DNA of 20,285 bases, taken from positions 1-20,285 of IMG/VR virus record IMGVR_UViG_3300021403_000057. One strand, given 5' to 3'. Made by a program: the position numbers and the translations under genes. Positions 2,679-20,164 of the stretch are shown in pieces. The notes under the pieces were generated by a model. It was not told where the DNA came from. It saw only the letters and a list, made by a program, of their open reading frames with translations, and searched no databases. This stretch comes from a virus. Numbering within the stretch: position 1 is the first letter of the stretch; every line of letters starts with the position of its first letter.

Positions 2679-2700
2679 TTAAATTCATAAATATGACTAT

Positions 2701-2943: not shown

Positions 2944-2944
2944 C

Positions 2945-3271: not shown

Positions 3272-3272
3272 A

Positions 3273-3440: not shown

Positions 3441-3441
3441 G

Positions 3442-3720: not shown

Positions 3721-3753
3721 CCTTTACTCCTTTATTATTAACTTGATTTCTCA

Positions 3754-3782: not shown

Positions 3783-3817
3783 GAGTAAAATTTATTATTT
3801 TTTATTATAGGTGAAAT

Positions 3818-4331: not shown

Positions 4332-4334
4332 AAT

Positions 4335-5936: not shown

Positions 5937-5938
5937 TA

Positions 5939-6794: not shown

Positions 6795-6809
6795 TTTATT
6801 CTCCTTTTG

Positions 6810-7481
6810 TTAAATTATAATTTCTTGTTGTATCTTTCTTTCAGTCGGATAAAGACCTTTGATCTTTTCATTATAGGAAACGATACCTTCCTGAATCTTC
6901 TTTTCAAATGCTGTTGCGGCTTCGATTATAGCGGTCTGTATCTTCTCATCCGGGTATATCTTTCCAACAAACATAGGTATACCACCCGAATAAGATATGA
7001 AGTCGCACCACTTGCGTTCTGACACAAGCAAACCTGATTGAACCTGCATCATATACTCAACTGGCATATTGCCGGAAAGTATAGTTTCAACCTGATATTT
7101 CTGCTTGCGTGATTTAATCTCAATAAACCCCTCTTCGCCTACAAGTGCATCAGGTGAGAAGCCAAGAGTGAAACCGAATTTATCGTTAGTAATAAACCCC
7201 ACCTCTTCTATGGGCGCGTACTTCTCTGCATAAAGGATTTTAGCCTCAACCTCTTCCTCGTTACCACGCAGCATATCGTCATTAATATATGAAGGCTCGA
7301 CATATTGGGTAACACGTTGGGCAATAAGTTCGTATAGATGCGACCTTTCTTTATCATTACTTGCAATCTTTAATGTAGGCGTGATGATATGTTTCATTTC
7401 GGAAGCGGTTAAAAGCCCACATCTGATTTGGAACCATTCATCAGATCCTTGGATAATGTCGTTGTAATATTTAATTGTCAT
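6810..7481 (-). CDS. YqaJ/lambda-type exonuclease
   Basis: A 223-residue nuclease of the YqaJ viral recombinase (lambda Exo) family, which degrades the 5' strand at double-strand ends to give 3' single strands for annealing. The family start is seen in QGSDEWFQIRCGLLTASE (11-28). The catalytic core is SPDALVGEEGFIEIKSR (109-125), with Asp111, Glu121 and Lys123 forming the PD-ExK centre. The Q-x-Q motif YMMQVQSGLLV (143-153) follows. Size is normal for the family. The SD is AGGAAAG. ATG 7481 overlaps the GIY-YIG stop as ATGA. It is second in the operon from the promoter at 7774-7802. Confidence 0.93.
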   Translation of the reverse strand: MTIKYYNDIIQGSDEWFQIRCGLLTASEMKHIITPTLKIASNDKERSHLYELIAQRVTQYVEPSYINDDMLRGNEEEVEAKILYAEKYAPIEEVGFITNDKFGFTLGFSPDALVGEEGFIEIKSRKQKYQVETILSGNMPVEYMMQVQSGLLVSERKWCDFISYSGGIPMFVGKIYPDEKIQTAIIEAATAFEKKIQEGIVSYNEKIKGLYPTERKIQQEIII

Positions 7482-7759
7482 GAGCTTTCCTGCTGTTGAT
7501 AAACTAATTTATAATTAGGATTGCCCTTAATATTAAATTCTGGTCGGTATTTTTTAATCTCATCTCTTTCATACTCAAACATTTTCATATATGGCATTTC
7601 CAATTCTTCAAACTCAATATAAAATATTCTGTTATACCACTTAGATCGGGATTTATGACCATCATGGTGGTGCCTAAGATGATTTGTAATTCCTATGTAA
7701 AGGACTTTCATCTCCTCGTCATAATGTTTATATAACCACATAGATTTTTTCTTTTTCAT
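7478..7759 (-). CDS. GIY-YIG nuclease domain protein
   Basis: A 93-residue single-domain GIY-YIG endonuclease. The first strand is LYKHYD with the YIG strand as VLYIGIT (about 19-25), the conserved Arg is in LRHHHDGH, and the catalytic Glu is in the helix ending ERDEIKKYRPEFN. Small phage members act on DNA in an undefined way and are not necessarily homing enzymes. No SD precedes ATG 7759, and the predicted transcription start is only about eight bases upstream, so translation may be near-leaderless. It is the first gene of the recombination operon and overlaps the exonuclease start. Confidence 0.85.
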   Translation of the reverse strand: MKKKKSMWLYKHYDEEMKVLYIGITNHLRHHHDGHKSRSKWYNRIFYIEFEELEMPYMKMFEYERDEIKKYRPEFNIKGNPNYKLVYQQQESS

Positions 7760-7773
7760 TTGACTTGCATTAT

Positions 7774-7802
7774 TTTATAGACTAATAATTGTTCACTGTC
7801 AA
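7774..7802 (-). promoter_or_regulatory. Leftward consensus sigma70 promoter for 7759-3936
   Basis: Read leftward: a perfect TTGACA (7802-7797), a 17-base spacer and TATAAA (7779-7774). The expected start of transcription is near 7767, about eight bases before the GIY-YIG ATG. The inverted repeat at 7782-7812 covers the -35 box and most of the spacer, so a repressor bound there would block it. Confidence 0.82.
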
Positions 7803-7812
7803 CAATTATTAG
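7782..7812. promoter_or_regulatory. Perfect 12-bp inverted repeat, likely operator
   Basis: CTAATAATTGTT (7782-7793) and AACAATTATTAG (7801-7812) are exact reverse complements separated by seven bases. The element lies between the divergent GIY-YIG and RHH genes, overlaps the -35 box and spacer of the leftward promoter, and ends just before the SD of the RHH gene. No T-run follows, so it is not a terminator. Binding by the adjacent RHH protein is an inference. Confidence 0.8.
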
Positions 7813-7820
7813 GATAATTT

Positions 7821-7979
7821 ATGCAAACTGAAAAAAAGGGGACTACTAGATACTCAATCTCAATGGATGTTCAAGTTGCGGATAGAATGGATGCATTACT
7901 TAAACAAGAAAGATGGGATGTTAGCGGTTATTTAGAAAGGTTGGTTGTCGCAGATTTGAAAGAGCCAAGATTTTTCTAA
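7821..7979 (+). CDS. Ribbon-helix-helix (RHH) regulator, 52 aa
   Basis: A 52-residue Arc/CopG-like protein: beta strand TRYSISM, helix A (DVQVADRMDALLKQE), turn, helix B (VSGYLERLVVADL). AGGA lies six bases before ATG 7821. It opens a rightward operon with the primase-helicase 21 bases downstream. The perfect inverted repeat at 7782-7812 sits immediately upstream, so autoregulation and control of the divergent recombination operon are likely (inference). The rightward promoter is not clear; TTGACT at 7760-7765 is the best -35 but its -10 (TAATAA) is poor. Confidence 0.82.
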   Translation: MQTEKKGTTRYSISMDVQVADRMDALLKQERWDVSGYLERLVVADLKEPRFF

Positions 7980-8000
7980 TAACATCCAAAAGGGTAGGCC

Positions 8001-10193
8001 ATGCCTAAACAACAACAAGTCAATGAAGAACTGACTTTAAAAAACCCTACCTTCTCCGAATATGCCAAAAAGGGTATTATAGTAATACCAGAAGAAAAAG
8101 CATTCCCTATAAAGGGCTTAGAATGGAGCCGTATATATAGAGAGTCATGGAGGCCAGATGAGGACACGTTGCTTAACTGGGACTTCCTTGATGGCATAGG
8201 TTTCGGCCTTGTTACCGGGCAACCTTCAAATATCATAGCTATTGATATAGACCATGCATCAGAAGCTGAAATGGAGCGCGTTATACAATTGCTTGGTGAT
8301 ACACCTTGCAAGAAATTCGGCACAAAAGGCGTTACTCTTTTCTATCGCTATAATGGTGAAAAGAATTGCCAATGGAGAAAAGATGATGTTATTAAGGTTG
8401 AGTTACTTTCCAGCGGCAAGAAAACAACCATCCCACCTTCAAAGCACCGTTCTGCTGATGGTCATTATGTATGGCTGGATGAGCCGCTGATTGATTGTTA
8501 TGATAGGCTTCCGGCGCTTCCAAGCAATTATAAAGAACTACTTGACTCCTTATTCAGCATTGTTCGCACTGTGGAGAAAGAATATATTCGCACGGATTAT
8601 GATTTAAAGCCCTCATTTAACGATGCAGTTGAAGCTTTAAATAAATGTGATCCATCTAACTCTGACAGAGATGGCTATTGGATTCCTATAAGTTTAGCGT
8701 TTAAGTTAGAAGTTGGTGATGCTGGCTATCAAGCCTGGGATGCGTGGTGTTCGCGTGGTGGCAAACAATATAAACAATCACAACAACGTAACGTTTGGCG
8801 CTCTTTAGATTCGCATAGCGTGAGTTATGGCACTTTGATTCATCATGCCAAACAGGGTGGGTATGTACCGCCTAAACGCGAGCAAGCCACGTTTACCACG
8901 ACAACAAGCATAGATGAGTGGGAGAAACATAGTCTTGAGGCTAAACTTGAGGCACTTGAGGAATCAAGTATACCACCTGAATTTTACACGAATTCCCCCA
9001 ATCATATAAAGGAAGTATGTGATTGGATTACTTCAACTGCAATGTATCCACAGCCTATATTAACACTTGGTTCTGTTATTTCTTTCTTTGGTTTTATGAT
9101 GGGTAAAGATTTTGAATTTAACTCACTACGTACAAATTTATATGTTGCAAACATTGCTTATTCTGCTGATGGTAAAGAGCACGTTAATAGGTGTATTCGC
9201 GGGCTTATGACTACAGCAGATATTTCTGATAATATATCCTATGGTTTCACATCAGATACATCTATATTGAATGATCTTAAAAAGAATGATGGGCGCACTT
9301 ATTATTTAACAGATGAATTGCAGGCTCTCTTATATTCTATTAGCAAACGTCACACTAATTCCGCAGAAGGGCGCGCAGTATCTACCTTATTGCAAGCCTA
9401 CACTGGCGTTGAAGTGCGCACCGTAACTAAGGCCAATATAAAAGAAAGCCCAACTATAATAGTGAAAAATCCATTGGTTACTATTTGCGGATATACAACG
9501 CCGCATATGTTTGAATCATGTCTTGGCACTACTGAGGTGCTAAGTGGTTTTGTTGGCCGCTTATCTACATTTAAAGGCAATAAATATATCCCGGAAGAAA
9601 ATCCTAATTTCTATGGCAATGCCTGGAAGAACATTCCAGCTAACATAGTTGAGATTGTAAAAAATATCCAATCCAACAGATATAAAGAAATTTTGCCAGA
9701 TGGGACTTTTCAATATGGCATGAAGGAAATTCCTACAAAATGCCTGGAACTAATCAAAGAATACCGAGAGCAAATAAGACTTAAACGTAACGAAATGCGT
9801 GCTAATAGCGACCCGTTAGAGGTTATATTCGGGCGTGCTGGTGAAGTTATGACTAAGTACGCGATGATAGCAAGCCAAGGGCGTGAGATAACCGAAGATC
9901 ATATTAACTGGGCAATTAGTGTGGTGGAATATAATTTATCTATTATATGCGATGTTGCCAAACAATTTGCTGATACCGGCTTCGAGCGCAAAAAACTCCA
10001 TGCATTGCAGTACATCGAAAGACGAAATGGACAGGTCACTAAATCTGAATTCACTAAGGGCTGCGCAATATTCGATAATGCACGTGAAAGAAATGAAGTT
10101 ATTAGGGATTTAATAGAAGGTGGGCAACTTGAGGATATTCAAATAGAAGGTAGCCATAAGAAAAAGGCTGGCTACCGATTGATTAAGGGTTAG
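8001..10193 (+). CDS. Prim-pol primase with PriCT and helicase-like domain
   Basis: A 730-residue replication protein. The N-terminal bifunctional primase/polymerase domain (about 16-180) has the metal-binding IDIDH (81-85) and the VELLSSGKKTTIPPSKHR block (133-150). A PriCT-type domain (about 205-287) follows, containing W-x-P-I and the GTLIHHAKQGGY end. Residues 330-645 resemble DUF3987-type ATPase/helicase domains: a loop ADGKEHV (389-395) in the Walker A position, YYLTDE (434-439) as Walker B and GFVGRL (516-521) as a possible arginine finger. The last 70 residues look like a winged helix. It would prime and unwind phage DNA, perhaps at the candidate origin near 14.7-15.3 kb. AGGGTAGG precedes the ATG. 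GKE instead of GK(S/T) is notable. The stop overlaps a convergent gene's stop. Confidence 0.88.
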   Translation: MPKQQQVNEELTLKNPTFSEYAKKGIIVIPEEKAFPIKGLEWSRIYRESWRPDEDTLLNWDFLDGIGFGLVTGQPSNIIAIDIDHASEAEMERVIQLLGDTPCKKFGTKGVTLFYRYNGEKNCQWRKDDVIKVELLSSGKKTTIPPSKHRSADGHYVWLDEPLIDCYDRLPALPSNYKELLDSLFSIVRTVEKEYIRTDYDLKPSFNDAVEALNKCDPSNSDRDGYWIPISLAFKLEVGDAGYQAWDAWCSRGGKQYKQSQQRNVWRSLDSHSVSYGTLIHHAKQGGYVPPKREQATFTTTTSIDEWEKHSLEAKLEALEESSIPPEFYTNSPNHIKEVCDWITSTAMYPQPILTLGSVISFFGFMMGKDFEFNSLRTNLYVANIAYSADGKEHVNRCIRGLMTTADISDNISYGFTSDTSILNDLKKNDGRTYYLTDELQALLYSISKRHTNSAEGRAVSTLLQAYTGVEVRTVTKANIKESPTIIVKNPLVTICGYTTPHMFESCLGTTEVLSGFVGRLSTFKGNKYIPEENPNFYGNAWKNIPANIVEIVKNIQSNRYKEILPDGTFQYGMKEIPTKCLELIKEYREQIRLKRNEMRANSDPLEVIFGRAGEVMTKYAMIASQGREITEDHINWAISVVEYNLSIICDVAKQFADTGFERKKLHALQYIERRNGQVTKSEFTKGCAIFDNARERNEVIRDLIEGGQLEDIQIEGSHKKKAGYRLIKG

Positions 10194-10351
10194 AGAGCTT
10201 TGCGCCCTTTTAATGCTTCTTTAACAAGCATGTTAATCACTTGATTATATGATAATTCAAGATTCTTAACGGTATCAATACGCAAAGATTGAATTATATC
10301 CTCAATCTTCGGCTCGAAAGTTACCGATGTTTGTTTATTTTTTTTACTCAT
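10190..10351 (-). CDS. RHH-like small protein, 53 aa
   Basis: A 53-residue protein with probable RHH layout: basic start (MSKKNKQ), strand TSVTFE, helix A (PKIEDIIQSLRIDTVKN), then LS and helix B (YNQVINMLVKEALKG), with a basic end. The match is less sharp than for the other two RHH proteins. It is the last gene of the leftward operon from 14568, with GAGGTGATAAGG before the ATG and an ATGA overlap with the gene upstream. Its TAA interlocks with the primase TAG from the other strand (10190-10193). Confidence 0.7.
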   Translation of the reverse strand: MSKKNKQTSVTFEPKIEDIIQSLRIDTVKNLELSYNQVINMLVKEALKGRKAL

Positions 10352-10503
10352 AACCTTATCACCTCATTTACATTAAGTTTACCTTGTTTTATTAAGTCTA
10401 TTTCCTTCCGGATTATTGACTCTAGAAATAAGCGTGCAGTATTGGCATGACCTTCTTTTACAGCCCAACAATAATGTCGTTTTAGCGCATCTAAGTCGTT
10501 CAT
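10348..10503 (-). CDS. Small helical protein, unknown
   Basis: A 51-residue charged, all-helical protein (LDALKRHYCWAVKEGHANTA, then LFLESIIRKEIDLIKQGKLN). An excellent SD, AAGGAG, precedes ATG 10503. The start overlaps the previous stop and the stop overlaps the RHH-like start, both as ATGA. The coupling with the RHH-like gene suggests the two may be a functional pair, but nothing in the sequence identifies it. Confidence 0.72.
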   Translation of the reverse strand: MNDLDALKRHYCWAVKEGHANTARLFLESIIRKEIDLIKQGKLNVNEVIRL

Positions 10504-10655
10504 TTTTTCTCCTTCTTGGCCTTTTTAATTGCATATTTGGCGCTGTATTCAGGATTTCCTGTTACATCACGCTCATATCGTTCACGGGCTCTCATTTCAG
10601 TGCGCGCCCATTGTTGCATGAGGGATTTTAGGAGGGCGTAGTCTATTGTTGTCAT
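10500..10655 (-). CDS. Small basic protein, unknown
   Basis: A 51-residue protein with a Trp/Arg-rich helix (LMQQWARTEMRARERYERD) and a lysine-rich end (AIKKAKKEKK). The basic character suggests nucleic-acid contact. GGAGGTGG lies upstream of the ATG at good spacing. It forms ATGA overlaps on both sides. No family recognised. Confidence 0.72.
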   Translation of the reverse strand: MTTIDYALLKSLMQQWARTEMRARERYERDVTGNPEYSAKYAIKKAKKEKK

Positions 10656-11092
10656 GCTTCCACCTCCGGCATTAGGAATGGTTTGTTGTCGCGTTGGATG
10701 ATTTTAAAATCTCTAAATCCTAATAAAACTTTTCCTGCAAATAATCCCGCATTATAAATATGATATTCTACAAGCGGATTGTCTTTGTAATCACCTATGG
10801 AGCATTTTATTTGGTATAAATCCCCTTCCATTGCCTCAAATATTGATAGACTGTCTGGATGGATATAGATTTTATCTGAGATATTTTCCATATACTTAAT
10901 GGCATCAGAAATCATTTCAATTTCTTCGCTACCCTCACAAAAGCAAGCATGGAACCAATCAAAATTTCTCTGGGCTTCAGTTAAATCATACTCGCTCATT
11001 TGCTCATCTGTATGCATACAGTATAGTTTAACCCCAAAATTCATCGCCATGTATGCAGCTTCAATCGGACAATCATAATAAAGTTTTTTCAT
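10652..11092 (-). CDS. Hypothetical acidic protein
   Basis: A 146-residue acidic, cysteine-containing soluble protein (five Cys, including FHACFC in the middle). The N-terminus alternates helix and strand (CPIEAAYMAMNFGVKLYC); the C-terminal half looks beta-rich (YQIKCSIGDY, EYHIYNAGLFAGKVLLGFRD). No family recognised. GGAGAAAAGGAA precedes ATG 11092. It is the largest product of this stretch of tiny genes and shares ATGA overlaps with both neighbours. Confidence 0.75.
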   Translation of the reverse strand: MKKLYYDCPIEAAYMAMNFGVKLYCMHTDEQMSEYDLTEAQRNFDWFHACFCEGSEEIEMISDAIKYMENISDKIYIHPDSLSIFEAMEGDLYQIKCSIGDYKDNPLVEYHIYNAGLFAGKVLLGFRDFKIIQRDNKPFLMPEVEA

Positions 11093-11244
11093 TTCCTTTT
11101 CTCCAATTCTTTATCAATTCTACCTAATGTTTTCTCACACATATCCCATTGTTTTGCGGTTCCTTCATGTGAATTGGCCTGAATCATAAACATGGAAGCG
11201 CGCTGCATGAGTAAGTCTTCTTTTGTGTAGTTGTGCCACTTCAT
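11089..11244 (-). CDS. Small helical protein, unknown
   Basis: A 51-residue, Met-rich amphipathic helical protein (KWHNYTKEDLLMQRASMFMI; TAKQWDMCEKTLGRIDKELE). The second helix could be a coiled coil. AAAGGGGG precedes the ATG. ATGA overlaps on both sides place it in the operon. No family recognised. Confidence 0.7.
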   Translation of the reverse strand: MKWHNYTKEDLLMQRASMFMIQANSHEGTAKQWDMCEKTLGRIDKELEKRK

Positions 11245-11387
11245 ATCAACCCCCTTTTCCTTCTAGATTCCCAAATCCTATTAATAAAATTCTCCCACTT
11301 CCAGAGTGCACCCCGTGGATTATCCCGAATCCAAAGGGCGCGTAAGTCTGGTATTGTTTTGCAGGTGGAGATTTCTTTCTTAGTCAC
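11241..11387 (-). CDS. Small Trp/Arg-rich protein, GTG start
   Basis: A 48-residue basic protein rich in Trp and Arg (TIPDLRALWIRDNPRGALWK, ending RIWESRRKRGLI). GTG 11387 is chosen because AAGG lies six bases upstream and it overlaps the previous stop as GTGA; an ATG two bases upstream is followed at once by a stop. No family recognised; the tryptophan-arginine composition suggests nucleic-acid or membrane-surface contact. Confidence 0.65.
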   Translation of the reverse strand: MTKKEISTCKTIPDLRALWIRDNPRGALWKWENFINRIWESRRKRGLI

Positions 11388-11539
11388 ATTATACCTTCCT
11401 TTCTCCAGGTTTCACGCCTATCTTCTTCAACTCCTATCCACATATCTGCCACTTGTGCCAGCTCTTCAGCAAGTTCTTTTATTGCATAACAATCTAGTTT
11501 TTGATCGCGGAGCATGGTATATAGTTGGGAAGGATTCAT
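11384..11539 (-). CDS. Small acidic helical protein, unknown
   Basis: A 51-residue acidic helical protein (YAIKELAEELAQVADMWIGV followed by EEDRRETWRKEG). AAGGGGG precedes ATG 11539. It overlaps both neighbours (ATGA and GTGA). No family recognised. Confidence 0.7.
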   Translation of the reverse strand: MNPSQLYTMLRDQKLDCYAIKELAEELAQVADMWIGVEEDRRETWRKEGIM

Positions 11540-11829
11540 TTTGCCCCCTTTTCACGTTCTGTAAGCATTGCGTCTGCCATACAATAACAGCTACGGGCAA
11601 TAGTAGTTAAATTACCCCTTATTTCACCATCCCTACTAATAAACATTTGTGTTTGCAATACTCCGTGTAGTGCTGCGCAAGCAAACTCATCCCTCAAAGT
11701 TTTTGCATTAAGTAGAGTTGAAATGGGGTTTATTAGGCTGAATTCTTCATTTGTCCATTGGCCTTTATTAATAAAATTAATCAAGTATAGTTTAGCTTCT
11801 TGGATAGTATTAATTTTATCTGGATTCAT
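11536..11829 (-). CDS. Conserved small phage protein, unknown function
   Basis: A 97-residue protein of a type often seen in phages of Proteobacteria. The conserved part is a segment with FACAALHGVLQTQ (about 47-59) and a C-terminal helix AxxCYxMADAMLTERE, where the M/I-ADAML-x-ER ending is characteristic. Function unknown. ATG 11829 is chosen over an in-frame upstream start at 11892 because a near-perfect SD, GGAGG, lies six bases before it and it forms TGATG with the stop of the membrane gene upstream. Confidence 0.8.
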   Translation of the reverse strand: MNPDKINTIQEAKLYLINFINKGQWTNEEFSLINPISTLLNAKTLRDEFACAALHGVLQTQMFISRDGEIRGNLTTIARSCYCMADAMLTEREKGAK

Positions 11830-11939
11830 CACATACCTCCAACTACTACAAACGCACAGAATAATAGCATTACAGCGAAGCAAGCTATGCATTCAGCTTT
11901 AAATAGGAATAGTAAGTCAGATTTTAGATCTTTATTCAT
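11829..11939 (-). CDS. Tiny single-span membrane protein
   Basis: A 36-residue protein: a polar head (MNKDLKSD), then a hydrophobic span to the end with three Cys (ECIACFAVMLLFCAFVVVGG). AGAGGAAG precedes ATG 11939. It overlaps the upstream gene by eight bases and the next by one (TGATG). It lies beside another N-terminally anchored protein, so the two may form a membrane pair. Confidence 0.65.
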   Translation of the reverse strand: MNKDLKSDLLFLFKAECIACFAVMLLFCAFVVVGGM

Positions 11940-12159
11940 GACTTCCTCTTCGTTCGTTATTGATAATTCTATAATTTTGCAATGGCAACCAACCTTCTTT
12001 GGTTTCAATCAAGCAGCCAGAAAAGACTGCGAACTGATGGTTAAAACTAGACTGTTCTGTTTTAGCCGCACATGATGCTTTAGCTATAAAATAAAATCCA
12101 GTTCCTAGTAAAAGGGAAAAGACTGCAAACACCATAATAATTATTAAATTTTCTCTCAT
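11932..12159 (-). CDS. Membrane-anchored small protein
   Basis: A 75-residue protein with an N-terminal hydrophobic segment (LIIIMVFAVFSLLLGTGFYF) and a short soluble domain containing two Cys (KASCAAKT; FSGCLIETKEGWLPLQNYR). The Cys-Leu-(I/V) and W-(V/L)-P patterns recur in small phage membrane proteins, of unknown role. The sequence before Cys is not a lipobox, so a lipoprotein is unlikely. AAGGA lies before ATG 12159 with rather long spacing. It overlaps the tiny membrane gene by eight bases. Confidence 0.75.
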   Translation of the reverse strand: MRENLIIIMVFAVFSLLLGTGFYFIAKASCAAKTEQSSFNHQFAVFSGCLIETKEGWLPLQNYRIINNERRGSHE

Positions 12160-12214
12160 ATTATTTTTCCTTGTTGGTTATGAGCAGTTTTGTAACATGC
12201 TCAGGTTATTGGGA

Positions 12215-12469
12215 CTATCTACCGTAACCGTCACCGTAACCGTCACCGTAACCGTCACCGTAACCGTCACCGTAACCGTAACCGTCACCGTAACCGTCAC
12301 CGTAACCGTCACCGGAACCGGAACCGTAACCGGAACCGGAACCGTCACCGTAACCGTCACCGTCACCGGAACCGTAACCGGAACCGTAACCGTAACCGGA
12401 ACCGTAACCGGAACCGTAACCGGAACCGTAACCGTAACCGCTTATACATGTTTTATGCTTTATACTCAT
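12215..12469 (-). CDS. Gly-Tyr/Asp/Ser dipeptide-repeat protein
   Basis: An 84-residue protein: a ten-residue head (MSIKHKTCIS), then 36 uninterrupted Gly-X dipeptides where X is Tyr, Asp or Ser only, ending Gly-Arg. All Gly are GGT, Tyr TAC, Asp GAC and Ser TCC, so the gene is a hexamer repeat differing at one or two bases per unit. GAGGG precedes ATG 12469, which overlaps the DUF6948 gene by 17 bases. I recall similar repeat genes beside DUF6948 genes in other phages but cannot confirm this. The composition predicts an unfolded, low-complexity chain of Tyr 'stickers' and Gly/Ser spacers. Function unknown; length is likely variable. Confidence 0.7.
   Translation of the reverse strand: MSIKHKTCISGYGYGSGYGSGYGSGYGYGSGYGSGDGDGYGDGSGSGYGSGSGDGYGDGYGDGYGYGDGYGDGYGDGYGDGYGR
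12221..12439. repeat. GGT-NNC hexamer tandem repeat
   Basis: About 36 copies of a six-base unit, on the leftward strand GGTTAC, GGTGAC or GGTTCC, with no interruption or spacer. It lies wholly inside the dipeptide-repeat gene. The (G)GTGAC form dominates at the 3' end and the GGTTCC form near the 5' end. Slippage would change the protein by two residues per unit without breaking the frame. Confidence 0.95.
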
Positions 12470-12848
12470 TTTGACCCTCAATATTTTTGATTGCAGCTTG
12501 TGAGCATGGAATAAGTTCAATTGCTTCCAACCAGATTGACTCGACAGGAGCACAAACTTTACTATCATCAGCTAGCCCACCATTGGCAACCTCTGAAAGT
12601 GAAATGCCCTTATTTTTGGTTTTCCAATAGAATAAACGGCGTGCATTCTTAACTATTACTTCCTTGCCGGATTTTTCTATTACCTCACCGAAAAATACAC
12701 CAGCGGTATAAGTGCGGATTATGCACTTTTTGCCCACTAGCAAGTTAAGCCCATCGCTGCAAGCATTTGTTGCAATAGTTTTATTTCCAAACAGCGCCAT
12801 TAATTCCTTAATTTCGCCTAGTGTTAAATTATCAGTACAGTTAGCCAT
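12453..12848 (-). CDS. DUF6948 family protein
   Basis: A 131-residue protein with the signature order of DUF6948: a helical start, VGKKCIIRTYTAGVFFGEV (about 38-56), the KEVIVKNARRLFYWK block, GISLSEVANGGLADDSKVC, and IWLEAIELIPCSQAA near the end. It reads as a small beta-barrel-like domain with a conserved ARRL(F/W)YWK core. Function unknown; widespread in proteobacterial phages. AAGGA lies eight bases before ATG 12848. The C-terminus overlaps the dipeptide-repeat gene. Family call is from memory of the motif set. Confidence 0.85.
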   Translation of the reverse strand: MANCTDNLTLGEIKELMALFGNKTIATNACSDGLNLLVGKKCIIRTYTAGVFFGEVIEKSGKEVIVKNARRLFYWKTKNKGISLSEVANGGLADDSKVCAPVESIWLEAIELIPCSQAAIKNIEGQNEYKA

Positions 12849-12849
12849 T

Positions 12850-13020
12850 TTATTTTCCTTTTAGATTGTTAAAGTTAGTAGTAGTTTCCCAAAAATCTTT
12901 AGCCTCATTCGGCACTTCCCAGGTGGTTAACTTATAATGCACCCAAATCCCCAGCCCAGGCAATCCAGCGCCTAGAATGATCCCGAATAGTAAGGTGTAG
13001 ATGAATTGACGTATTTGCAT
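12850..13020 (-). CDS. Small single-span membrane protein
   Basis: A 56-residue protein with a hydrophobic segment at about residues 7-27 (IYTLLFGIILGAGLPGLGIW) and a polar C-terminal tail ending NNLKGK. AAAGGAG is found upstream of ATG 13020. It ends one base before the DUF6948 start. No family recognised. Confidence 0.68.
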   Translation of the reverse strand: MQIRQFIYTLLFGIILGAGLPGLGIWVHYKLTTWEVPNEAKDFWETTTNFNNLKGK

Positions 13021-13037
13021 AAAGTTAGGCTCCTTTG

Positions 13038-13202
13038 TTATAGTTGATAGTTGGGTTTCTCATTCTTAATTGTATCTTCATAAGCCTTAAATGCCCTCTC
13101 ACATGCAATGAATTTTTCTTCAAGGCTCGTATTTCTGTTTTCCAAAACTGAATGGGTAAAACGGTTTAGGCTTTGCAATAAAGGTAATCTATTATAAAAC
13201 AC
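13038..13202 (-). CDS. Small helical protein, GTG start
   Basis: A 54-residue charged protein (LLQSLNRFTHSVLENRN, then a helix EEKFIACERAFKAYEDTIKN). GTG 13202 is chosen because AGGAG lies upstream with six bases to the start; a nearby ATG at 13204 is in another frame and stops after 12 codons. The start lies right after the upstream stop. No family recognised. Confidence 0.65.
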   Translation of the reverse strand: MFYNRLPLLQSLNRFTHSVLENRNTSLEEKFIACERAFKAYEDTIKNEKPNYQL

Positions 13203-13203
13203 A

Positions 13204-13533
13204 TCACTCTCCTGTTTGGTTAAGTTTATTTAGTAGGGCGGTGGCCTTACTATAAACGGTCATTTGCTCTGGTTGTGGTAGCGCGTGTTTTATAAGCTGC
13301 ATAAATTCCTTAACCATCTCCACCAATTTCTCATGGTGATTAACAGCAAGGCAAATAAAGGCGGCGCTCTCTCCTGAAATATCAACAGCCCCATAAGGTT
13401 CTGGGTTGCGCATAGTGCCACAATCTCCACCGCTGGAAAATATTGAATTATCAGAGAAATCTTTTATGGTTAAAACAGTGCCATATAACCCACCGGCTTC
13501 TATTCTCCAAGGTAATTTAGGTATATGTTTCAT
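13204..13533 (-). CDS. Conserved small phage protein (PWR type)
   Basis: A 109-residue protein like many small phage proteins that open with a PW(R/K) motif (KLPWRIEAGG), pass through a Gly/Asp-rich middle and contain a segment of type AAFICLAVNHHEKLVEMVKE (about 57-76), followed by a helical end. The A-x-x-AVN-x-H-x-x-LV helix is the best-conserved part. Function unknown. AAGGAC precedes ATG 13533. Confidence 0.78.
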   Translation of the reverse strand: MKHIPKLPWRIEAGGLYGTVLTIKDFSDNSIFSSGGDCGTMRNPEPYGAVDISGESAAFICLAVNHHEKLVEMVKEFMQLIKHALPQPEQMTVYSKATALLNKLNQTGE

Positions 13534-13537
13534 GGTT

Positions 13538-13669
13538 TTATTGTCCTTTTGAAATTGTTGAGCGCAAGATAGATGTTAATCTTGTTGCCTCTTGCATAGA
13601 ATCATTGATATATTCTCGTGCCGCAGACGTATCATAGCCATAAACTTCTGTGCTAATAATACCTTGCAA
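13538..13669 (-). CDS. Possible small gene, TTG start (weak)
   Basis: A 43-codon open frame filling an otherwise empty gap, with protein-like sequence (STEVYGYDTSAAREYINDSM, then QEATRLTSILRSTISKGQ). The only usual start upstream is TTG 13669, without an SD, overlapping the preceding gene by 17 bases; translation could rely on coupling. It may instead be non-coding. Confidence 0.4.
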   Translation of the reverse strand: MQGIISTEVYGYDTSAAREYINDSMQEATRLTSILRSTISKGQ

Positions 13670-13940
13670 GCGCGCTTATCAACTTACCCCTTTCTTCAAA
13701 AGATAGTTCATTCCAGCCTGATTGCTGCAACTCGTTTATTTGTTTTTGTTGGCGCTGTATTATATGCTCGGCATCGAAATCTCTAACTTGCAAAACATCT
13801 AAAAGCTTGATTAACTCTCTCGCCTCTGTTGTATTTAGCTCAACCATTGTAGAGCTGCCGAGCTTGTTACTTTCAGCAAATTCAATACACCTTTCCAGCG
13901 TTCTAGTAAAATAACTTATGTTTTGATACAATTTATCCAT
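13653..13940 (-). CDS. Hypothetical helical protein
   Basis: A 95-residue helical protein with a probable long coiled coil (ELIKLLDVLQVRDFDAEHII, then QRQQKQINELQQSGW) and an N-terminal helix (YFTRTLERCIEFAESNK). ATG 13940 is chosen because GGAG and TTGGA lie upstream; an in-frame TTG at 13964 would add eight residues but has no SD. It overlaps the 37-residue gene upstream by eight bases. No family recognised. Confidence 0.72.
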   Translation of the reverse strand: MDKLYQNISYFTRTLERCIEFAESNKLGSSTMVELNTTEARELIKLLDVLQVRDFDAEHIIQRQQKQINELQQSGWNELSFEERGKLISALARYY

Positions 13941-14046
13941 TTTTTTCCAACTCCATTTGTTCAATTGCAGCCCTAAGCCTTTCTGGCTCTATTCCTATAT
14001 ATTCTGCTCCAGATTCTATTTGTTCATTTGTATAAGGTAATTTCAT
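13933..14046 (-). CDS. Tiny protein, unknown
   Basis: A 37-residue protein (LPYTNEQIESGAEYIGIEPE, then a helix RLRAAIEQMELEKNG). The sequence resembles one helical hairpin. AGAGGG lies upstream of the ATG at long spacing. It overlaps both neighbours (23 bases and 8 bases). No family recognised. Confidence 0.6.
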   Translation of the reverse strand: MKLPYTNEQIESGAEYIGIEPERLRAAIEQMELEKNG

Positions 14047-14146
14047 ATGTTATACCGCCCTCTGAGCTAATATATGCAAGCTCTTGAGGTGTATTAGTTG
14101 CGGCTTTTAATGGGTTTAAGTCTTTAGGTGTAAATAGTTTATCCAT
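14024..14146 (-). CDS. Tiny protein, unknown
   Basis: A 40-residue protein (KLFTPKDLNPLKAATNTPQE, ending GGITYEITLYK). An excellent SD, GGAGG, precedes ATG 14146, and the gene overlaps the upstream stop by eight bases. No family recognised; the strong SD is the main support. Confidence 0.65.
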   Translation of the reverse strand: MDKLFTPKDLNPLKAATNTPQELAYISSEGGITYEITLYK

Positions 14147-14384
14147 TACAAACCTCCGCAAATTTACCTTCAACTTTGCGGCTATAATATTCAAATAAGC
14201 CCTTAAAAGACCATTCTTTATTTAATAGGGCTAGATGTTCTTTCGGGTCTTCATTATAAATAGTTGGCTTAACTCCCGATCTTTTCATCTCCCCTTCGTT
14301 TTTTAGGTCATAATTGTTGCATAGATATAAAGAGTTATGACTCTTATTGACTTGTGCCAGTATTATGTATTTATTGTTTTCCAT
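14139..14384 (-). CDS. Hypothetical protein
   Basis: An 81-residue protein with a beta-like start (NNKYIILAQVNKSHNSLYLC) and a polar, lysine-rich remainder ending FAEVCNG. No family recognised. The SD (AGGGT, 14395-14391) lies inside one arm of a perfect 10-bp inverted repeat (14391-14446), so its translation may be controlled by mRNA folding. Confidence 0.72.
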   Translation of the reverse strand: MENNKYIILAQVNKSHNSLYLCNNYDLKNEGEMKRSGVKPTIYNEDPKEHLALLNKEWSFKGLFEYYSRKVEGKFAEVCNG

Positions 14385-14390
14385 AATCTT

Positions 14391-14446
14391 ACCCTATTTT
14401 AATTATCCCTATTATTTGTAGTATCCCGGCATAAAGAAAATAGGGT
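14391..14446 (-). promoter_or_regulatory. Predicted mRNA hairpin hiding an SD
   Basis: In the leftward transcript, ACCCTATTTT (14446-14437) is an exact complement of AAAATAGGGT (14400-14391), which contains the SD of the 14384 gene. The 36-base loop carries a second AATAGGG (14411-14405) that could pair with the same left arm over seven bases and free the SD. No T-run follows, so a terminator is unlikely. Confidence 0.55.
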
Positions 14447-14469
14447 TAACTCTATGCCAGGAATTTCTA

Positions 14470-14568
14470 TTACCCCAAAAAACTCCCGTTGTTCAATACA
14501 TGATACGCAGTAAGTGCAATTAGTATTGCCAGTAATATATTCTGTATCAAGTTGTGGTTTAGTTTCAT
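14470..14568 (-). CDS. Tiny single-span membrane protein, first gene of the operon
   Basis: A 32-residue protein with a polar head (MKLNHN), one hydrophobic span (LIQNILLAILIALTAY) and a short tail. GAGG lies upstream of ATG 14568 at suitable spacing. It is the first frame in the transcript from the promoter at 14660-14688, after a leader of about 85 bases. No family recognised. Confidence 0.6.
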   Translation of the reverse strand: MKLNHNLIQNILLAILIALTAYHVLNNGSFLG

Positions 14569-14656
14569 ATCCGTACCTCTATATTGTGTTATACTCTCAG
14601 TCTATTTACTCCGGTTCCTATTTTGATTTGCTTGAACCTTTAAACGCTGCAATATG

Positions 14657-14670
14657 TATGTTATAACATA
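14657..14670. promoter_or_regulatory. 14-bp palindrome over the -10 box
   Basis: TATGTTATAACATA is a perfect palindrome centred on the -10 element of the leftward promoter at 14660-14688. A dimeric repressor bound here would block transcription of the small-gene operon. The regulator is unknown. Confidence 0.65.
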
Positions 14671-14688
14671 TGCAATTTGGTGTGTCAA
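14660..14688 (-). promoter_or_regulatory. Leftward sigma70 promoter for 14568-10190
   Basis: Read leftward: perfect TTGACA (14688-14683), a 17-base spacer, TATAAC (14665-14660). The transcript would start near 14653. The leader contains a possible hairpin, GGTTC...GAACC. Confidence 0.8.
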
Positions 14689-14737
14689 GTATTTAATTTA
14701 TTTAATTTACTATAACCTTATTACTTGGTATTTTACC

Positions 14738-14985
14738 AATAGTTCTAATCATTCGAATAGTTCCATAAGAACTCAAGCGCAAGGAAACTGTAGGTGTTCA
14801 AGCAATAGTTCTAATCAATAATTCAGGTGGGTATCCCTTGAACGTATAGTGACTAGTGCCGAATTATTGGAATTATTGTAATATAATATTATATATATAT
14901 ATATATTAATAGGTTAGTAGATAGTAGCAGTTTGAATAGTTCTAAATAGTTCTATTTTTACCCCCCAATAGTTCTAAATAGTTCT
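14738..14985 (+). repeat. Seven AATAGTTC(T/C) iterons
   Basis: Copies start at 14738, 14756, 14804, 14935, 14945, 14967 and 14977; all end AGTTCT except the one at 14756, which ends AGTTCC. The last four form two pairs with a 10-base period, about one DNA turn. AGTTC at 14759-14763 also forms an inverted repeat with GAACT at 14769-14773. Confidence 0.85.
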
Positions 14986-15081
14986 TGATACTTTTATGCA
15001 ACAGTGGTGTTATGCAGAGATTATGCAATTGTGCAGATCCGATAGCATAATACGTGCAAGACTATCGCTTGTTGCATATAG

Positions 15082-15155
15082 TTAATAGGTATAAAATGGG
15101 TGCGAGAAATTAACTAATTATTAATAAAGGTTAATAGGTGTATGCATTAATGCAT
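15082..15155. repeat. TTAATAGGT repeats and ATGCATTAATGCAT palindrome
   Basis: TTAATAGGT occurs at 14906-14914, 15082-15090 and 15131-15139, with a variant CTAATAGGA at 15220-15228. ATGCATTAATGCAT at 15142-15155 is a perfect palindrome three bases after the third copy. TTATGCA occurs at 14994, 15010 and 15021. Confidence 0.75.
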
Positions 15156-15258
15156 GGTGCTTGTTGGTGCTATGGTATATATGTAATGGTTAACTATTGG
15201 TTAATTTTATTGTATGATGCTAATAGGATTCCTACCTAATGAATGGCCGGGGAGTAGG

Positions 15259-15315
15259 ATGAAATATTGGAATGGGGTGTGGGGTTATTATGGTACCTTA
15301 AACAAGCACGTTTGA
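15259..15315 (+). CDS. Possible 18-aa leader peptide (weak)
   Basis: GGGGAG lies four bases before ATG 15259, opening an 18-codon frame (MKYWNGVWGYYGTLNKHV) whose stop overlaps the -35 box of the late promoter. It is aromatic-rich. Only the SD supports it, and no good promoter precedes it. Confidence 0.25.
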   Translation: MKYWNGVWGYYGTLNKHV

Positions 15316-15340
15316 CTTTCTCTTTTGCCCACGTTATACT
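15312..15340 (+). promoter_or_regulatory. Rightward sigma70 promoter for late genes
   Basis: TTGACT (15312-15317), 17-base spacer, TATACT (15335-15340). Transcription would start near 15347, one or two bases before ATG 15349, giving an almost leaderless message for the first late gene. Confidence 0.75.
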
Positions 15341-15348
15341 CCACAAAT

Positions 15349-15774
15349 ATGTTCACCAAATCCCAATACACAGAAATCCTGAATTGGATATATCATTATA
15401 TACAATCCCACAGAGATATTTATCTATTGCAACAGGTACCAGTGACGGGGGTGATTGATTATTCTGTAGGTGATTTAGTTCGTGCGATGAAAAAATTTCG
15501 GGGGGATAGTGAGGTTGTTCGATATTATGAGAAGGTGCGGGAGTTGTTGGTATTGAGGTTGATAGAGAATAAGGATTTGGATGCTTCGACCAGGAATAAA
15601 TTATGCGAGGAATGGTTGGTAGATTCGAGAGTGGGGGAGTTGTCGGGGGTAGATGTGGCGAAGGAATTGAGTGATGTGGAGTTGGTTCGGAGGATGGGGG
15701 AGTTAGGGTGGGTAAGGAAAGGGGTGGAAGTAAATGCGTCTGTTCAAAAAATTAAAAGGAGGAGTGCAAAATGA
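15349..15774 (+). CDS. Putative small terminase subunit (by position)
   Basis: A 141-residue protein. An aromatic N-terminal helix (TKSQYTEILNWIYHYIQSH) is followed by a helical core (YSVGDLVRAMKKFRGDSEVV, then YYEKVRELLVLRLIENKDL) and a C-terminal part with VDVAKELSDVELVRRMGELG and a basic tail. An HTH-like start, helical oligomerisation core and its place as the first late gene upstream of the large terminase fit a small terminase subunit, which recognises phage DNA for packaging, but three small genes intervene and no diagnostic motif is seen. ATG 15349 is chosen over 15325 because the latter lies inside the promoter. No SD; near-leaderless. The gene is strikingly G-rich and C-poor. Confidence 0.6.
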   Translation: MFTKSQYTEILNWIYHYIQSHRDIYLLQQVPVTGVIDYSVGDLVRAMKKFRGDSEVVRYYEKVRELLVLRLIENKDLDASTRNKLCEEWLVDSRVGELSGVDVAKELSDVELVRRMGELGWVRKGVEVNASVQKIKRRSAK

Positions 15775-15956
15775 GAATAACACCACTTGCGAAAATAATA
15801 CGGGTTGAATCGCCGGAGGTTGAGGGATATAGGTGGCTGGGGAATGTGTATAGTCCGAGTGGATCATTACGAGTGCGGGAAGGCTTGACTGATGCGTATT
15901 ATATAGTTGATGAAAAGAATATGATATTATTGCGGAGGATTGATGGTGCGGCGTAG
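15771..15956 (+). CDS. Small beta-rich protein, unknown
   Basis: A 61-residue protein that looks like a small beta barrel or SH3-like fold (LAKIIRVESPEVEGYRWLGN, then VYSPSGSLRVREG and DAYYIVDEKNMILLRRI). Start overlaps the previous stop as ATGA, and AGGAGTG lies upstream. No family recognised. Confidence 0.75.
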   Translation: MRITPLAKIIRVESPEVEGYRWLGNVYSPSGSLRVREGLTDAYYIVDEKNMILLRRIDGAA

Positions 15957-16107
15957 TTGGATTGATACATGTACAGTGCCTGTTTCGGACTTATGCAAGT
16001 TACGATATGGTGGAGTGCGTATGAGGACTGAGAGTGGTGAGGGTATGGTACTTACTCCATTTCAGGTATCTGAGTTAAGGGCGCGGGGGTTGTTGGATGT
16101 TGAGTAG
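15943..16107 (+). CDS. Small protein, unknown
   Basis: A 54-residue protein (MVRRSWIDTCTVPVSDLCKL, then RYGGVRMRTESGEGMVLTPF and a helical end VSELRARGLLDVE). GGAGG lies four bases before ATG 15943. It overlaps its neighbours by 14 and 11 bases. The ending resembles short phage head-region proteins with a terminal helix, but no family is recognised. Confidence 0.7.
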   Translation: MVRRSWIDTCTVPVSDLCKLRYGGVRMRTESGEGMVLTPFQVSELRARGLLDVE

Positions 16108-16321
16108 AAATACAATAAGGAGTGGCGAAGAATTTTGGGAATTTTATAAGGATGATTTTTATTATTCCATAAATATTTGTGGGTTTGGTGAAGAATATAT
16201 AAAAAATAGTTTTAATAGGGCTTATGAGCATGAGTTTTTGTGTAGAAGAAGTCCTTATTATGATGAGGAATGCAAAGTAGCTAATATAGAAAAGGCAAAA
16301 AGGTTGTGGAATGCCGAATGA
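16097..16321 (+). CDS. Small aromatic acidic protein, unknown
   Basis: A 74-residue protein rich in Tyr, Phe and Glu (GEEFWEFYKDDFYYSINICG, then YIKNSFNRAYEHEFLCRR and a C-terminal helix ending KRLWNAE). The SD is weak (TTGTTGG). It overlaps the terminase start by 11 bases, so the two are probably translated together. No family recognised. Confidence 0.72.
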   Translation: MLSRNTIRSGEEFWEFYKDDFYYSINICGFGEEYIKNSFNRAYEHEFLCRRSPYYDEECKVANIEKAKRLWNAE

Positions 16322-17738
16322 AGCCTTAACACTTGCGACACAGCTTTCTGAGCGGCAGAAGTGGAATGCGCGGGATTATTTATTTCCTGATGTTGGGCCG
16401 TTGCGGAGGGAGTTGTATCCGAAACATGAAATGGTATTTGGGGGTGGTGCGGATTATAGGGAGCGAATTTTTATTGCGGCGAACAGGGTTGGTAAGACGG
16501 TTGTAGGGTGTTATGAAACTACTTGTCATGCAACGGGCGAATATCCGAAATGGTGGAAGGGTTGGCGGGTAAATAAACCCGTAACAATCTGGGTAGCGGG
16601 TGATACGGGTAAAACTACGCGGGATATTTTACAGAATAAGTTGTTGGGACCAGTGGGTGAATTTGGTTCGGGGCTAATACCAAGAAAGGCGATAGGACGA
16701 TATTTAAGTAAGACGGGTGTGGCGGATGCGATAGAGGTTGTGTATGTGAAGTCGAAGTTTGGTGGATATAGCACAATATATTTCAAGTCATACGATCAGA
16801 GGCGCGAAGGTTTCCAGGGAACTGAAGTTGATTTCATTCAGCCAGATGAGGAACCACCGCAGGATATTTATACAGAAATGTTATTGCGTACAATGACCAC
16901 TAATGGGCGCATACTAACTACCTTCACTCCACTCATGGGGTTGTCGGATGTAGTGCTTCAATTCTGTGCAGGCGGAGAAATAGTTGAGGGGCCTATAAGT
17001 ACTTCTAAATTTGTTGTTTCCTGCGATTGGGATTCAGTGCCGCACTTAAGCAAGAAAGACAAAGACGACCTCTATGCAGCAATACCACCATTCCAGCGCG
17101 ATGCTCGTTCAAAGGGCATTCCACAATTAGGAAGTGGTGCGATATATCAAGTGCCGGAGTCGGAAATACTGGTAGATGATTTTGATATGCCGGAAAGTTG
17201 GAGGCGTGTTTATGCAATGGACGTTGGCTGGAATAGAACCGCGGCATTGTGGGGTGCGCATGATGTTGAGAATGATATAGTATATTGTTATTCGGAACAT
17301 TATAGAGGACAGGCTGAACCAGTTATTCATGCACAAGCTATTAAAGGGCGGGGCAAATGGATTCGGGGGGTAATTGATCCTGCATCGCGGGGACGTACTC
17401 AGACAGATGGACATTCTTTGATAGATATGTACCGGGATTTAGGATTAGATTTGAGCATGGCGAACAATGCGGTTGAAGCGGGGATATATGAAGTATGGGA
17501 ACGCTTGTCGAGTGGACGGTTGAAAATATTTAAGTCGTTGGGGAATTTGCGTTCAGAGTATAGGATATATAGACGTGATGAGAAGGGGCGGATTGTAAAG
17601 AAGGACGATCACTTATTAGATTGTTTACGTTATTTAATAATGTCTGGATTGGAAAATGCGAAACCAAAAAAACTTGTAGAGAAGAAAGAAATAGTATATG
17701 GTGACTTCACAGGATTAACTGAAGGATGGATGCAGTGA
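16311..17738 (+). CDS. terL: Terminase large subunit
   Basis: A 475-residue packaging motor with an ATPase and a nuclease domain. Walker A is AANRVGKT (56-63), preceded by ERIFI. Walker B with the catalytic Glu is VDFIQPDEEPP (173-183). The coupling motif is TTFTP (203-207). The RNase-H-like nuclease has Asp304 (AMDVGWNRT), Asp356 (GVIDPASRG) and Asp433 region (KDDHLLDCLRY). It pumps DNA into the prohead through the portal and cuts it; family Terminase_6-like. AAAAGG lies seven bases before ATG 16311. Base composition changes inside the gene: C-poor and G-rich at 16311-16780 and 17140-17700, C-rich between. Confidence 0.95.
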   Translation: MPNEALTLATQLSERQKWNARDYLFPDVGPLRRELYPKHEMVFGGGADYRERIFIAANRVGKTVVGCYETTCHATGEYPKWWKGWRVNKPVTIWVAGDTGKTTRDILQNKLLGPVGEFGSGLIPRKAIGRYLSKTGVADAIEVVYVKSKFGGYSTIYFKSYDQRREGFQGTEVDFIQPDEEPPQDIYTEMLLRTMTTNGRILTTFTPLMGLSDVVLQFCAGGEIVEGPISTSKFVVSCDWDSVPHLSKKDKDDLYAAIPPFQRDARSKGIPQLGSGAIYQVPESEILVDDFDMPESWRRVYAMDVGWNRTAALWGAHDVENDIVYCYSEHYRGQAEPVIHAQAIKGRGKWIRGVIDPASRGRTQTDGHSLIDMYRDLGLDLSMANNAVEAGIYEVWERLSSGRLKIFKSLGNLRSEYRIYRRDEKGRIVKKDDHLLDCLRYLIMSGLENAKPKKLVEKKEIVYGDFTGLTEGWMQ

Positions 17739-17887
17739 TGCAGGAAGAGAAAAAGTGCCAGTACAAAAATTGGACTGAAAGTGTCAATGGTATTCCTACA
17801 AAAATGCAAGGTTGTTATCCAGGTTCACAACTTGGTTCATGTAAAGGTTATACTGAAATCAAATGCAAATATCCTAACTGTCTATGA
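17738..17887 (+). CDS. Cys-rich small protein between terminase and portal
   Basis: A 49-residue protein with five cysteines (positions 7, 26, 35, 43, 48), for example GCYPGSQLGSCKGY and IKCKYPNC. The pattern could bind zinc or form disulfides. The start is one base into the terminase stop (TGATG) and the end overlaps the next gene as ATGA, so it is clearly part of the translated late operon. No family recognised. Confidence 0.72.
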   Translation: MQEEKKCQYKNWTESVNGIPTKMQGCYPGSQLGSCKGYTEIKCKYPNCL

Positions 17888-18090
17888 CAATATACCTCTC
17901 AACAGAACCCGGAATGAAAATTGGTGGAACGCTGAAGTACGGGGATAAGATGCTTGTATGCGATAGACTCTATTCTCAGGGAAAAGATATGAAGCGTGAC
18001 AAGCCAGAATATGCAATGTCTGCGCAAAATGGATATTGGGGATTTAGTGTACAACAGGAAACGCAAACCGGGGATGTAAATAATGGCTGA
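17884..18090 (+). CDS. Small protein before the portal
   Basis: A 68-residue protein, beta-rich start (MTIYLSTEPGMKIGGTLKYG, then DKMLVCDRLYSQGKDM) and a polar tail. There is no SD; the ATGA overlap suggests coupling. It overlaps the portal start by eight bases. No family recognised. Confidence 0.72.
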   Translation: MTIYLSTEPGMKIGGTLKYGDKMLVCDRLYSQGKDMKRDKPEYAMSAQNGYWGFSVQQETQTGDVNNG

Positions 18091-20164
18091 CCATTCTAAT
18101 AATAGATCAACTGGGCGTGGCGGAATACCCGATCCTATCATCACTCTTGCAATGGAGCGTTTTAAAACTACTGCCGAGGCGGAGTTTGAAGGGCGTAAAG
18201 CTGCTAAAGATGATATGGAGTTCTATGTATCTAACCAGTGGCCTGACCAGATTTCTCAGGATAGGCAGACAGATGGCCGTCCGTGTTTAACTATTAATAG
18301 ACTACCTCAATTTGTGCGTCAGGTGACGAATGACCAGCGCATGAATAGACCGAGTGTAAAAGTAATTCCAGTGGAGGATTCAGATGAAAATGTTGCCAAG
18401 ATATATGAAGGTTTGGTTCGTCATATTCAGGAAGCTTCGCAGGCTGATATTGCGTATGATACAGCTTGTCAAACACAAGTAATATGTGGGCGTGGGTTCT
18501 TTCGCATCATAACTGATTATTGCAATGAAGAAAACTTTGACCAGGATATTTTAATCAAGCGTATAAAAAACCCATTAACGGTTTATGTTGACCCCGCATC
18601 TATTGAGCCGGATTATTCTGATGCACGTTTTATGTTTATCGTTGAGGATCTTTCTAAAGAAGAATTCAAGAGTATGTACCCAAAGGCGGAAGTTATCAGT
18701 GACACAAGTTTTATGTCGCGGGGTGATGGTGCTTCGACTTGGGCGACTGAGAAAGCAATGCGTATTGCAGAATATTTTACTGTAGAAGATGAAGTAAAGA
18801 AATTATATCAACTTGCATCAGGTGAGATTGTTGCGGAAGTTCCAGAAGGTGAGGAAGCCGTTAAAGAACGTGAGGCAGTTACCAAGAAAGTAATCTGGAG
18901 AAAGATTTCTTGTGTAGAAGTCTTAGAAGAAAAAGATTGGGCGGGTAAATATATTCCTATCATTCCAGTTCTGGGTGATGATCTTGATGTAGATGGCAAG
19001 CGTTATATAAAAGGTATGGTGCGCGATGCTAAAGATTCTCAGCGTATGTATAATTACTGGGCTTCGGCCCAAACGGAAGCAATAGCTCTTGCGCCAAAAG
19101 CCCCATTTATTGCAGCAGAAGGTCAGATAGAGGGTTACGAAGCAATGTGGGCTGCGGCTAATACCAAGAATTATGCAGTATTACCATATAAACCACGTAC
19201 TATAGATGGGACACAGGTTCCTGCACCACAACGTATCACAGCAGAGCCGCCAGTACAGGCTATGGTTCAGGCGATGAAACAAGCCGGCGATGATATGAAG
19301 GCTATTACAGGTATCTATGATGCATCTTTGGGTGCTCGTAGTAATGAAACTTCTGGTAAGGCTATTACTGCGCGTCAGAAATCAGGTGACGTTGCGAATT
19401 ATCATTATGTAGATAATCTTGGTCGCTCAATAAGACATTTAGGTCGTTGCTTAATTGATCTTATTCCTAAAATTTACGATGCGCCGCGTGTTGTGCGTAT
19501 TTTAGGTGAAGATGGTGAAGGTGCTAATGTGCCTATTAACCAACCTACTTCCGGTGCTGATGGAGTTAATCAGATTTATGATGTTACATCTGGTAAATAT
19601 GATGTGGTTGTAGAAACTGGCCCATCGTTTGAAACTAAACGCCAGGAAACTGCTGATGCAATGGCTACTGTTCTTCAGGCAAATCCCGAATTATGGCAAG
19701 TTGCAGGTGATATATTTGTTAAATCACTTGATTGGCCGAATGCAGATAAACTTGCAGAGCGTATGAAGAAAATGTTACCTCCGCAATTGCAAGATAATGC
19801 GAATCCGATACCGCCACAAGTGCAACAACAATTAGACCAGAGTAAACAGATGATTCAGCAATTGACTGAAGCACTTCATGCTGAAAAAGATAAGAATGAA
19901 TCCAAACAGGCAGAGATGGAGAGTAAAGAAGCAATGAATGCTGAAAATAATTCTACGAAACTTCTTATTGCCGAAATGCAAAATAACTTTGGCGCATTCA
20001 AAGAGGACCTTGCACATTTACGTGCTCACCTTGATAGGGAATTAGCGCAGGAAGAAATGGAAAAATCACAAGCCCTTGACAATGCACAAGCATCTGATAC
20101 AATGGGTGGTATGAATTCACAAGAAGCGCCGAATGCGGAATTAACTGCTGGTGTGAGTGGATAA
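18083..20164 (+). CDS. P22-type portal protein
   Basis: A 693-residue portal, close to the 725 residues of P22 gp1. It forms the dodecameric ring at one head vertex through which the terminase pumps DNA. Typical segments: FYVSNQWPDQISQDRQTDGR (47-66), PCLTINRLPQFVRQVTNDQR (67-86), RPSVKVIPVED, then a DPASIEPDYSDARFMFIVED block near residue 170. The last 115 residues, from about 578, are Gln/Glu/Lys-rich coiled coil, matching the long helical barrel of P22-like portals, followed by a flexible tail. GGGGA lies before ATG 18083. It overlaps the upstream gene by eight bases and is followed by a probable scaffold gene. Confidence 0.93.
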   Translation: MADHSNNRSTGRGGIPDPIITLAMERFKTTAEAEFEGRKAAKDDMEFYVSNQWPDQISQDRQTDGRPCLTINRLPQFVRQVTNDQRMNRPSVKVIPVEDSDENVAKIYEGLVRHIQEASQADIAYDTACQTQVICGRGFFRIITDYCNEENFDQDILIKRIKNPLTVYVDPASIEPDYSDARFMFIVEDLSKEEFKSMYPKAEVISDTSFMSRGDGASTWATEKAMRIAEYFTVEDEVKKLYQLASGEIVAEVPEGEEAVKEREAVTKKVIWRKISCVEVLEEKDWAGKYIPIIPVLGDDLDVDGKRYIKGMVRDAKDSQRMYNYWASAQTEAIALAPKAPFIAAEGQIEGYEAMWAAANTKNYAVLPYKPRTIDGTQVPAPQRITAEPPVQAMVQAMKQAGDDMKAITGIYDASLGARSNETSGKAITARQKSGDVANYHYVDNLGRSIRHLGRCLIDLIPKIYDAPRVVRILGEDGEGANVPINQPTSGADGVNQIYDVTSGKYDVVVETGPSFETKRQETADAMATVLQANPELWQVAGDIFVKSLDWPNADKLAERMKKMLPPQLQDNANPIPPQVQQQLDQSKQMIQQLTEALHAEKDKNESKQAEMESKEAMNAENNSTKLLIAEMQNNFGAFKEDLAHLRAHLDRELAQEEMEKSQALDNAQASDTMGGMNSQEAPNAELTAGVSG

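Follow-up and report, generated by a model that had tools for sequence, protein, structure and literature searches.

Positions 14738-14985 of a 20,285-bp stretch of viral DNA (IMG/VR record IMGVR_UViG_3300021403_000057, positions 1 to 20,285; hereafter the window) are probably the replication origin of a phage, recognised by a PrimPol-DUF3987 protein that the phage encodes at 8001-10193. A preliminary description had proposed an iteron-bearing origin at this site, and our analysis supports it: the array and its geometry have been kept together with replication genes and not with terminases, the weakest duplex lies within the array both in the window and in a related record, G001, regions of repeats with AT tracts lie beside distantly related prim-pol genes, and the prim-pol is predicted to carry a winged helix. 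What was computed here comprises the repeats and the conservation of their geometry, the position at which duplex stability is lowest, the association of the array with the prim-pol lineage, and the domain layout predicted for the prim-pol.

Seven exact copies of AATAGTTC(T/C), the number given earlier, start at 14738, 14756, 14804, 14935, 14945, 14967 and 14977 (a span of 248 bp), and an exact search of all 20,285 bases found no AATAGTTC outside 14738-14985. This clustering exceeds that of dinucleotide shuffles, since the most frequent 8-mer of the 940-bp intergenic region occurs seven times, against at most four for any 8-mer in 200 shuffles. With one mismatch allowed, a further direct copy appears at 14817 and inverted copies at 14861 and 14870. 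The left iteron set (14738-14824, plus strand) thus comprises the copies at 14738, 14756 and 14804 with the one-mismatch copy at 14817; two inverted one-mismatch iterons follow on the minus strand (14861-14878), then an alternating AT tract, a putative unwinding element (14879-14911), and a right set (14935-14985, plus strand) whose four copies form the two pairs at 10-base spacing noted in the preliminary description (14935/14945 and 14967/14977). The AT tract had likewise been described correctly. The tandem GAATTATTG reported with it, also written as the GAATTATTGGAATTATTG region (14861-14878), is present but is not a separate element, being the AATAGTTC repeat inverted with one mismatch in each copy. 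A dyad, AGTTC-CATAA-GAACT (14759-14773), overlaps the second iteron, and a TACCCC element, TTTTTACCCCCC (14955-14966, plus strand), is shared with many of the origin-like regions compared below and is treated as a lead only.

The feature was originally drawn at 14701-15311; the array accounts for 14738-14985 of this interval, and most of 14986-15311 lies outside it. Its placement between divergent gene sets stands, with leftward genes on one side (nearest start 14384) and on the other a rightward series from about 15325, which farther along includes a terminase large subunit and a P22-like portal. Three small ORFs without a family match (15325-16321) precede the terminase large subunit, one of which may be the terminase small subunit. 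Two further elements lie to the right of the array: three TTATGCA motifs within 34 bp (14994-15027), DnaA-box-like, with one within one mismatch, and a 24-bp patch with a GGTTAATTTTATTG core (15190-15213), 92% identical in G001 and perhaps part of a late promoter. The 940-bp region holds a single DnaA box at one mismatch, no more than the record average, which does not fit a DnaA-dependent origin. Elsewhere in the window, tandem ACCGTAACCGTC-type units with a period of 12/18 (about 19 copies of 12) occupy 12221-12440, without a counterpart found in the G001 scan, and neither Rfam families nor tRNAs were found.

An exact scan of viral contigs for the 19-mer AATAGTTCTAAATAGTTCT returned one locus, in G001, a 39,390-bp record that is probably a complete circular map because it carries a 127-bp terminal repeat. 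Eight exact AATAGTTC copies lie in its region 35914-36127, of nine across the whole G001 genome. Those at 36120, 36103, 36055 and 36042 align to the left set of the window and those at 35945, 35935 and 35914 match the right set, while an exact inverted iteron, GAACTATT, sits at the edge of the AT tract, in the first of the window's two inverted places. The dyad AGTTCnATAAGAACT is common to both arrays (G001 counterpart AGTTCGATAAGAACT). Iteron spacing is nearly the same, 18-48-13 / 10-22-10 in the window and 17-48-13 / 10-21 in G001, and the two records differ in the distance from left to right set by 21 bp, or about two helical turns. In a blastn comparison (E<=1e-3) they match in their replication genes, in part of the portal gene and in the array, which is the sole non-coding match. 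G001 is the only further phage found with a AATAGTTC array: blastn of the array region against named phages gave no match, and single-protein scans with the terminase and the prim-pol, as well as a genome collection, yielded no relatives. Three records with three or four AATAGTTC copies (L027, L046 and L033) were set aside as chance, the copies lying in or among coding sequence. One other record, L078, has a prim-pol at 45% identity and is too short to reach the array, and Acetobacter phage phiAX1 has the phrog_11517 protein in common with the window phage and shows no such array.

The weakest 50-bp duplex of the window, 14862-14911 (-42.7 kcal/mol; mean -63.1, sd 4.6), sits between the left and right iteron sets, and that of the complete G001 genome starts at 35953, also within the array. 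Cumulative GC skew, proposed earlier as a check, has its minimum inside both arrays (14774 in the window, 36090 in G001) but proved uninformative: the skew tracks gene strand, flipping in both phages over the prim-pol gene, which opposes the strand of its neighbours, and is therefore not independent evidence, being unable to tell an origin from divergent transcription.

The prim-pol helicase mentioned in the preliminary description is indeed encoded by the phage, with Prim-Pol, PriCT-2 and DUF3987 domains all above Pfam cut-offs in the one plus-strand protein at 8001-10193, as in the PrimPol-PriCT2-DUF3987 class (PMC5862659); we propose this protein as the initiator. AlphaFold2 predicts a C-terminal winged helix at residues 660-727 (9978-10181), the proposed iteron-binding domain, with a mean pLDDT of 78 across the full-length protein and 86.5 for the domain alone. 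Foldseek matches to the whole model include pRN1 ORF904, NrS-1 PrimPol, MCM and ORC, and more weakly SaPI PriRep1 with dsDNA and the SaPI5 primase-helicase; the isolated domain resembles winged-helix DNA-binding proteins, weakly (best E 0.0036). Overall identity to the G001 prim-pol is 64%, and by domain 68% in the winged helix, 83% in the AAA+ core and 45% in the primase, a pattern consistent with an unchanged iteron. The shared replication/recombination module further includes, on the minus strand, a DEAD/ResIII-type helicase (4335-5936; 67% in G001) and a phrog_11517 protein with a YqaJ-type exonuclease (6177-7481; 68% and 71%), compared with 36% for the portal. Two small proteins that are only weakly RHH-like (7821-7979 and 10190-10351) flank the prim-pol gene, with G001 identities of 49% and 35%.

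Distant prim-pol relatives, at about 21-28% identity, were collected by an alignment-based scan and tblastn. Two of them, G007 and G015, have GCAAGGTG repeats in both orientations (five exact copies in G007) around an alternating AT tract in the non-coding DNA directly 3' of the prim-pol gene. In L060 an AT tract comes after five CGTCAACA repeats beside the gene, and in Pseudoalteromonas phage H40/1 GTAAAAAG repeats surround an AT tract upstream of it. Repeats alone are seen in G017 (eleven of CCGGACCA, beside the prim-pol gene) and Synechococcus phage JY40 (six of GTCGGTTA). The L060 record (G008) carries, in order across 4516-9985, the prim-pol, the repeat/AT region, small genes and terminase-like genes, placing its origin-like region between replication and packaging modules as in the window phage. 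When relatives were grouped by single linkage at 40% and the longest record per cluster was taken (some being partial), the 600 bp downstream of the prim-pol gene contained the weakest duplex in 5 of the 11 clusters, where 0.36 would be expected (P about 2.5e-5, with the 600-bp limit chosen after the first records had been inspected). Further records of the G017 cluster have their weakest duplex outside these 600 bp, and no origin-like region was found near that gene in, for example, G009, G010, L064-L071, DDSR119 and BUCT805. TACCCC/GGGGTA, spotted by eye before being counted, is among the most enriched 6-mers of ten origin-like regions (15 against 1.06) and about 7-fold enriched relative to the remaining non-coding DNA of these records (11 sites vs 6). 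A palindrome in G007, GGGGGTAT..ATACCCCC, could be a terminator, and for this reason the motif is kept only as a lead for a priming site; in some phages it may be a terminator stem.

The array might instead consist of operators only, through which a phage regulator, perhaps an RHH-like protein encoded near the prim-pol, controls the early promoter. We consider this unlikely, though it draws on several features. A near-consensus promoter, TTGACA-17-TATAAC (14660-14688, minus strand), stands 50 bp from the array, as does its G001 counterpart (TTGACA-17-TATTAT, 36178-36206), and the prim-pol gene is not adjacent to the array but lies 4.5 kb away (about 7 kb in circular G001). Spacing of 10 bp suits RHH arrays, and the two RHH-like proteins, also common to the window and G001, could include such a regulator; one gives weak matches to RHH_1 (E 0.012, below the cut-off) and to a PHROG of transcriptional repressors. 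Operators, however, do not need the weakest duplex of the genome between two sets of sites, and the analogous regions of G007 and G015 are flanked by convergent genes; as the next genes point the opposite way, no promoter would be expected there. The other conserved promoter of the window (7774-7802), by an RHH-like gene, moreover has a palindrome of its own and no exact AATAGTTC. This palindrome, CTAATAATTGTT..AACAATTATTAG, extends over a TTGACA-17-TATAAA promoter at 7774-7813, between the YqaJ operon and the RHH-like gene, and is possibly an RHH operator; G001 has a similar promoter at 6093-6120. As the binder of the array we favour the prim-pol over an RHH protein.

A pac- or cos-type packaging start, recognised by the small subunit of the terminase, is a much weaker candidate. 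Phage cosB sites contain repeats, and in both phages the array adjoins the terminase operon on its upstream side. The array has nevertheless been kept while the terminase proteins of the window and G001 share no similarity at E<=1e-3, their TerL proteins falling into different PHROGs except for the general phrog_2; its conserved partners are replication proteins. Conservation of the array with replication genes and not with terminases speaks for a replication element rather than a packaging site. Least probable of all is that the array is a centromere-like site for the partition of a plasmid-like prophage. Some partition sites typically combine arrays of direct repeats with RHH proteins, but they do not require the repeats to be split around an AT tract, and reading the ORFs by eye, without profiles, in the window and in G001 1-20000 brought no ParA-like ATPase to notice.

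A replication origin of this design has several counterparts. Origins of phage-inducible chromosomal islands (PICIs) have two iteron sets around an AT-rich region just 3' of rep, and in EcCICFT073 rep and ori sustain plasmid replication (PMC6092414); the iteron sets at 14738-14824 and 14935-14985, around the weakest duplex at 14862-14911, are arranged alike. SaPI Rep and Cch2 read repeats through the C-terminal domain (PMC7581432), and the window prim-pol resembles the SaPI/PICI Pri-Rep proteins as an initiator joining primase, helicase and a C-terminal DNA-binding domain, the last being predicted here. It differs in its helicase, which is DUF3987 and not DUF927 or D5/Primase_Cterm. An origin-like region directly 3' of the prim-pol gene, the PICI position, is found in G007, G015, L060 and G017, whereas in the window (4.5 kb away) and G001 the array is not so placed. 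PICIs are also satellites without virion genes of their own, unlike the window phage with its terminase large subunit and portal. In the SCCmec Cch2 origin (PMC7581432) the C-terminal domain of a helicase likewise binds direct repeats in a non-coding region. The repeats there number only three, are short (AAGTG) and follow the gene, and the primase, CCPol-MP, is separate. The alpha protein of satellite P4 combines primase, helicase and origin recognition, and its origin has iterons and an AT-rich segment; compared by description, its primase and helicase families differ from those of the window prim-pol, and P4 needs a second site, crr. Origins of the lambda/P22 O-protein type resemble the window array in being phage iterons next to an AT-rich segment, and the window phage has a P22-like portal; their iterons, however, sit within the initiator gene and act with host DnaB, whereas the window iterons are non-coding and the phage encodes a helicase.

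We infer that the prim-pol binds and melts the array and starts replication there. Its C-terminal winged helix would contact the AATAGTTC iterons of the left and right sets, and AAA+ rings of the protein would assemble there and melt the AT tract between the sets (about 14862-14911). Once loaded onto the strands thus separated, the prim-pol would use its primase domain for priming and unwind the DNA outward from the array. As the early promoter is 50 bp from the array, a bound initiator may also influence early transcription.

An iteron origin is in principle ordinary; this one has good comparative support and would extend the design to the putative PrimPol-DUF3987 initiator family. More tentatively, and short of an even chance in our judgement, PrimPol-DUF3987 proteins could be a large class of putative self-loading phage initiators sharing lineage-specific iterons, an AT tract and a TACCCC/GGGGTA box (a possible priming site), with the origin of the window phage having moved off the initiator gene to the divide between early and late transcription. 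The literature searched contained no link between DUF3987 and iterons or an origin, although work outside that search may exist. DUF3987 is described in the literature as a predicted helicase domain (PMC5862659).
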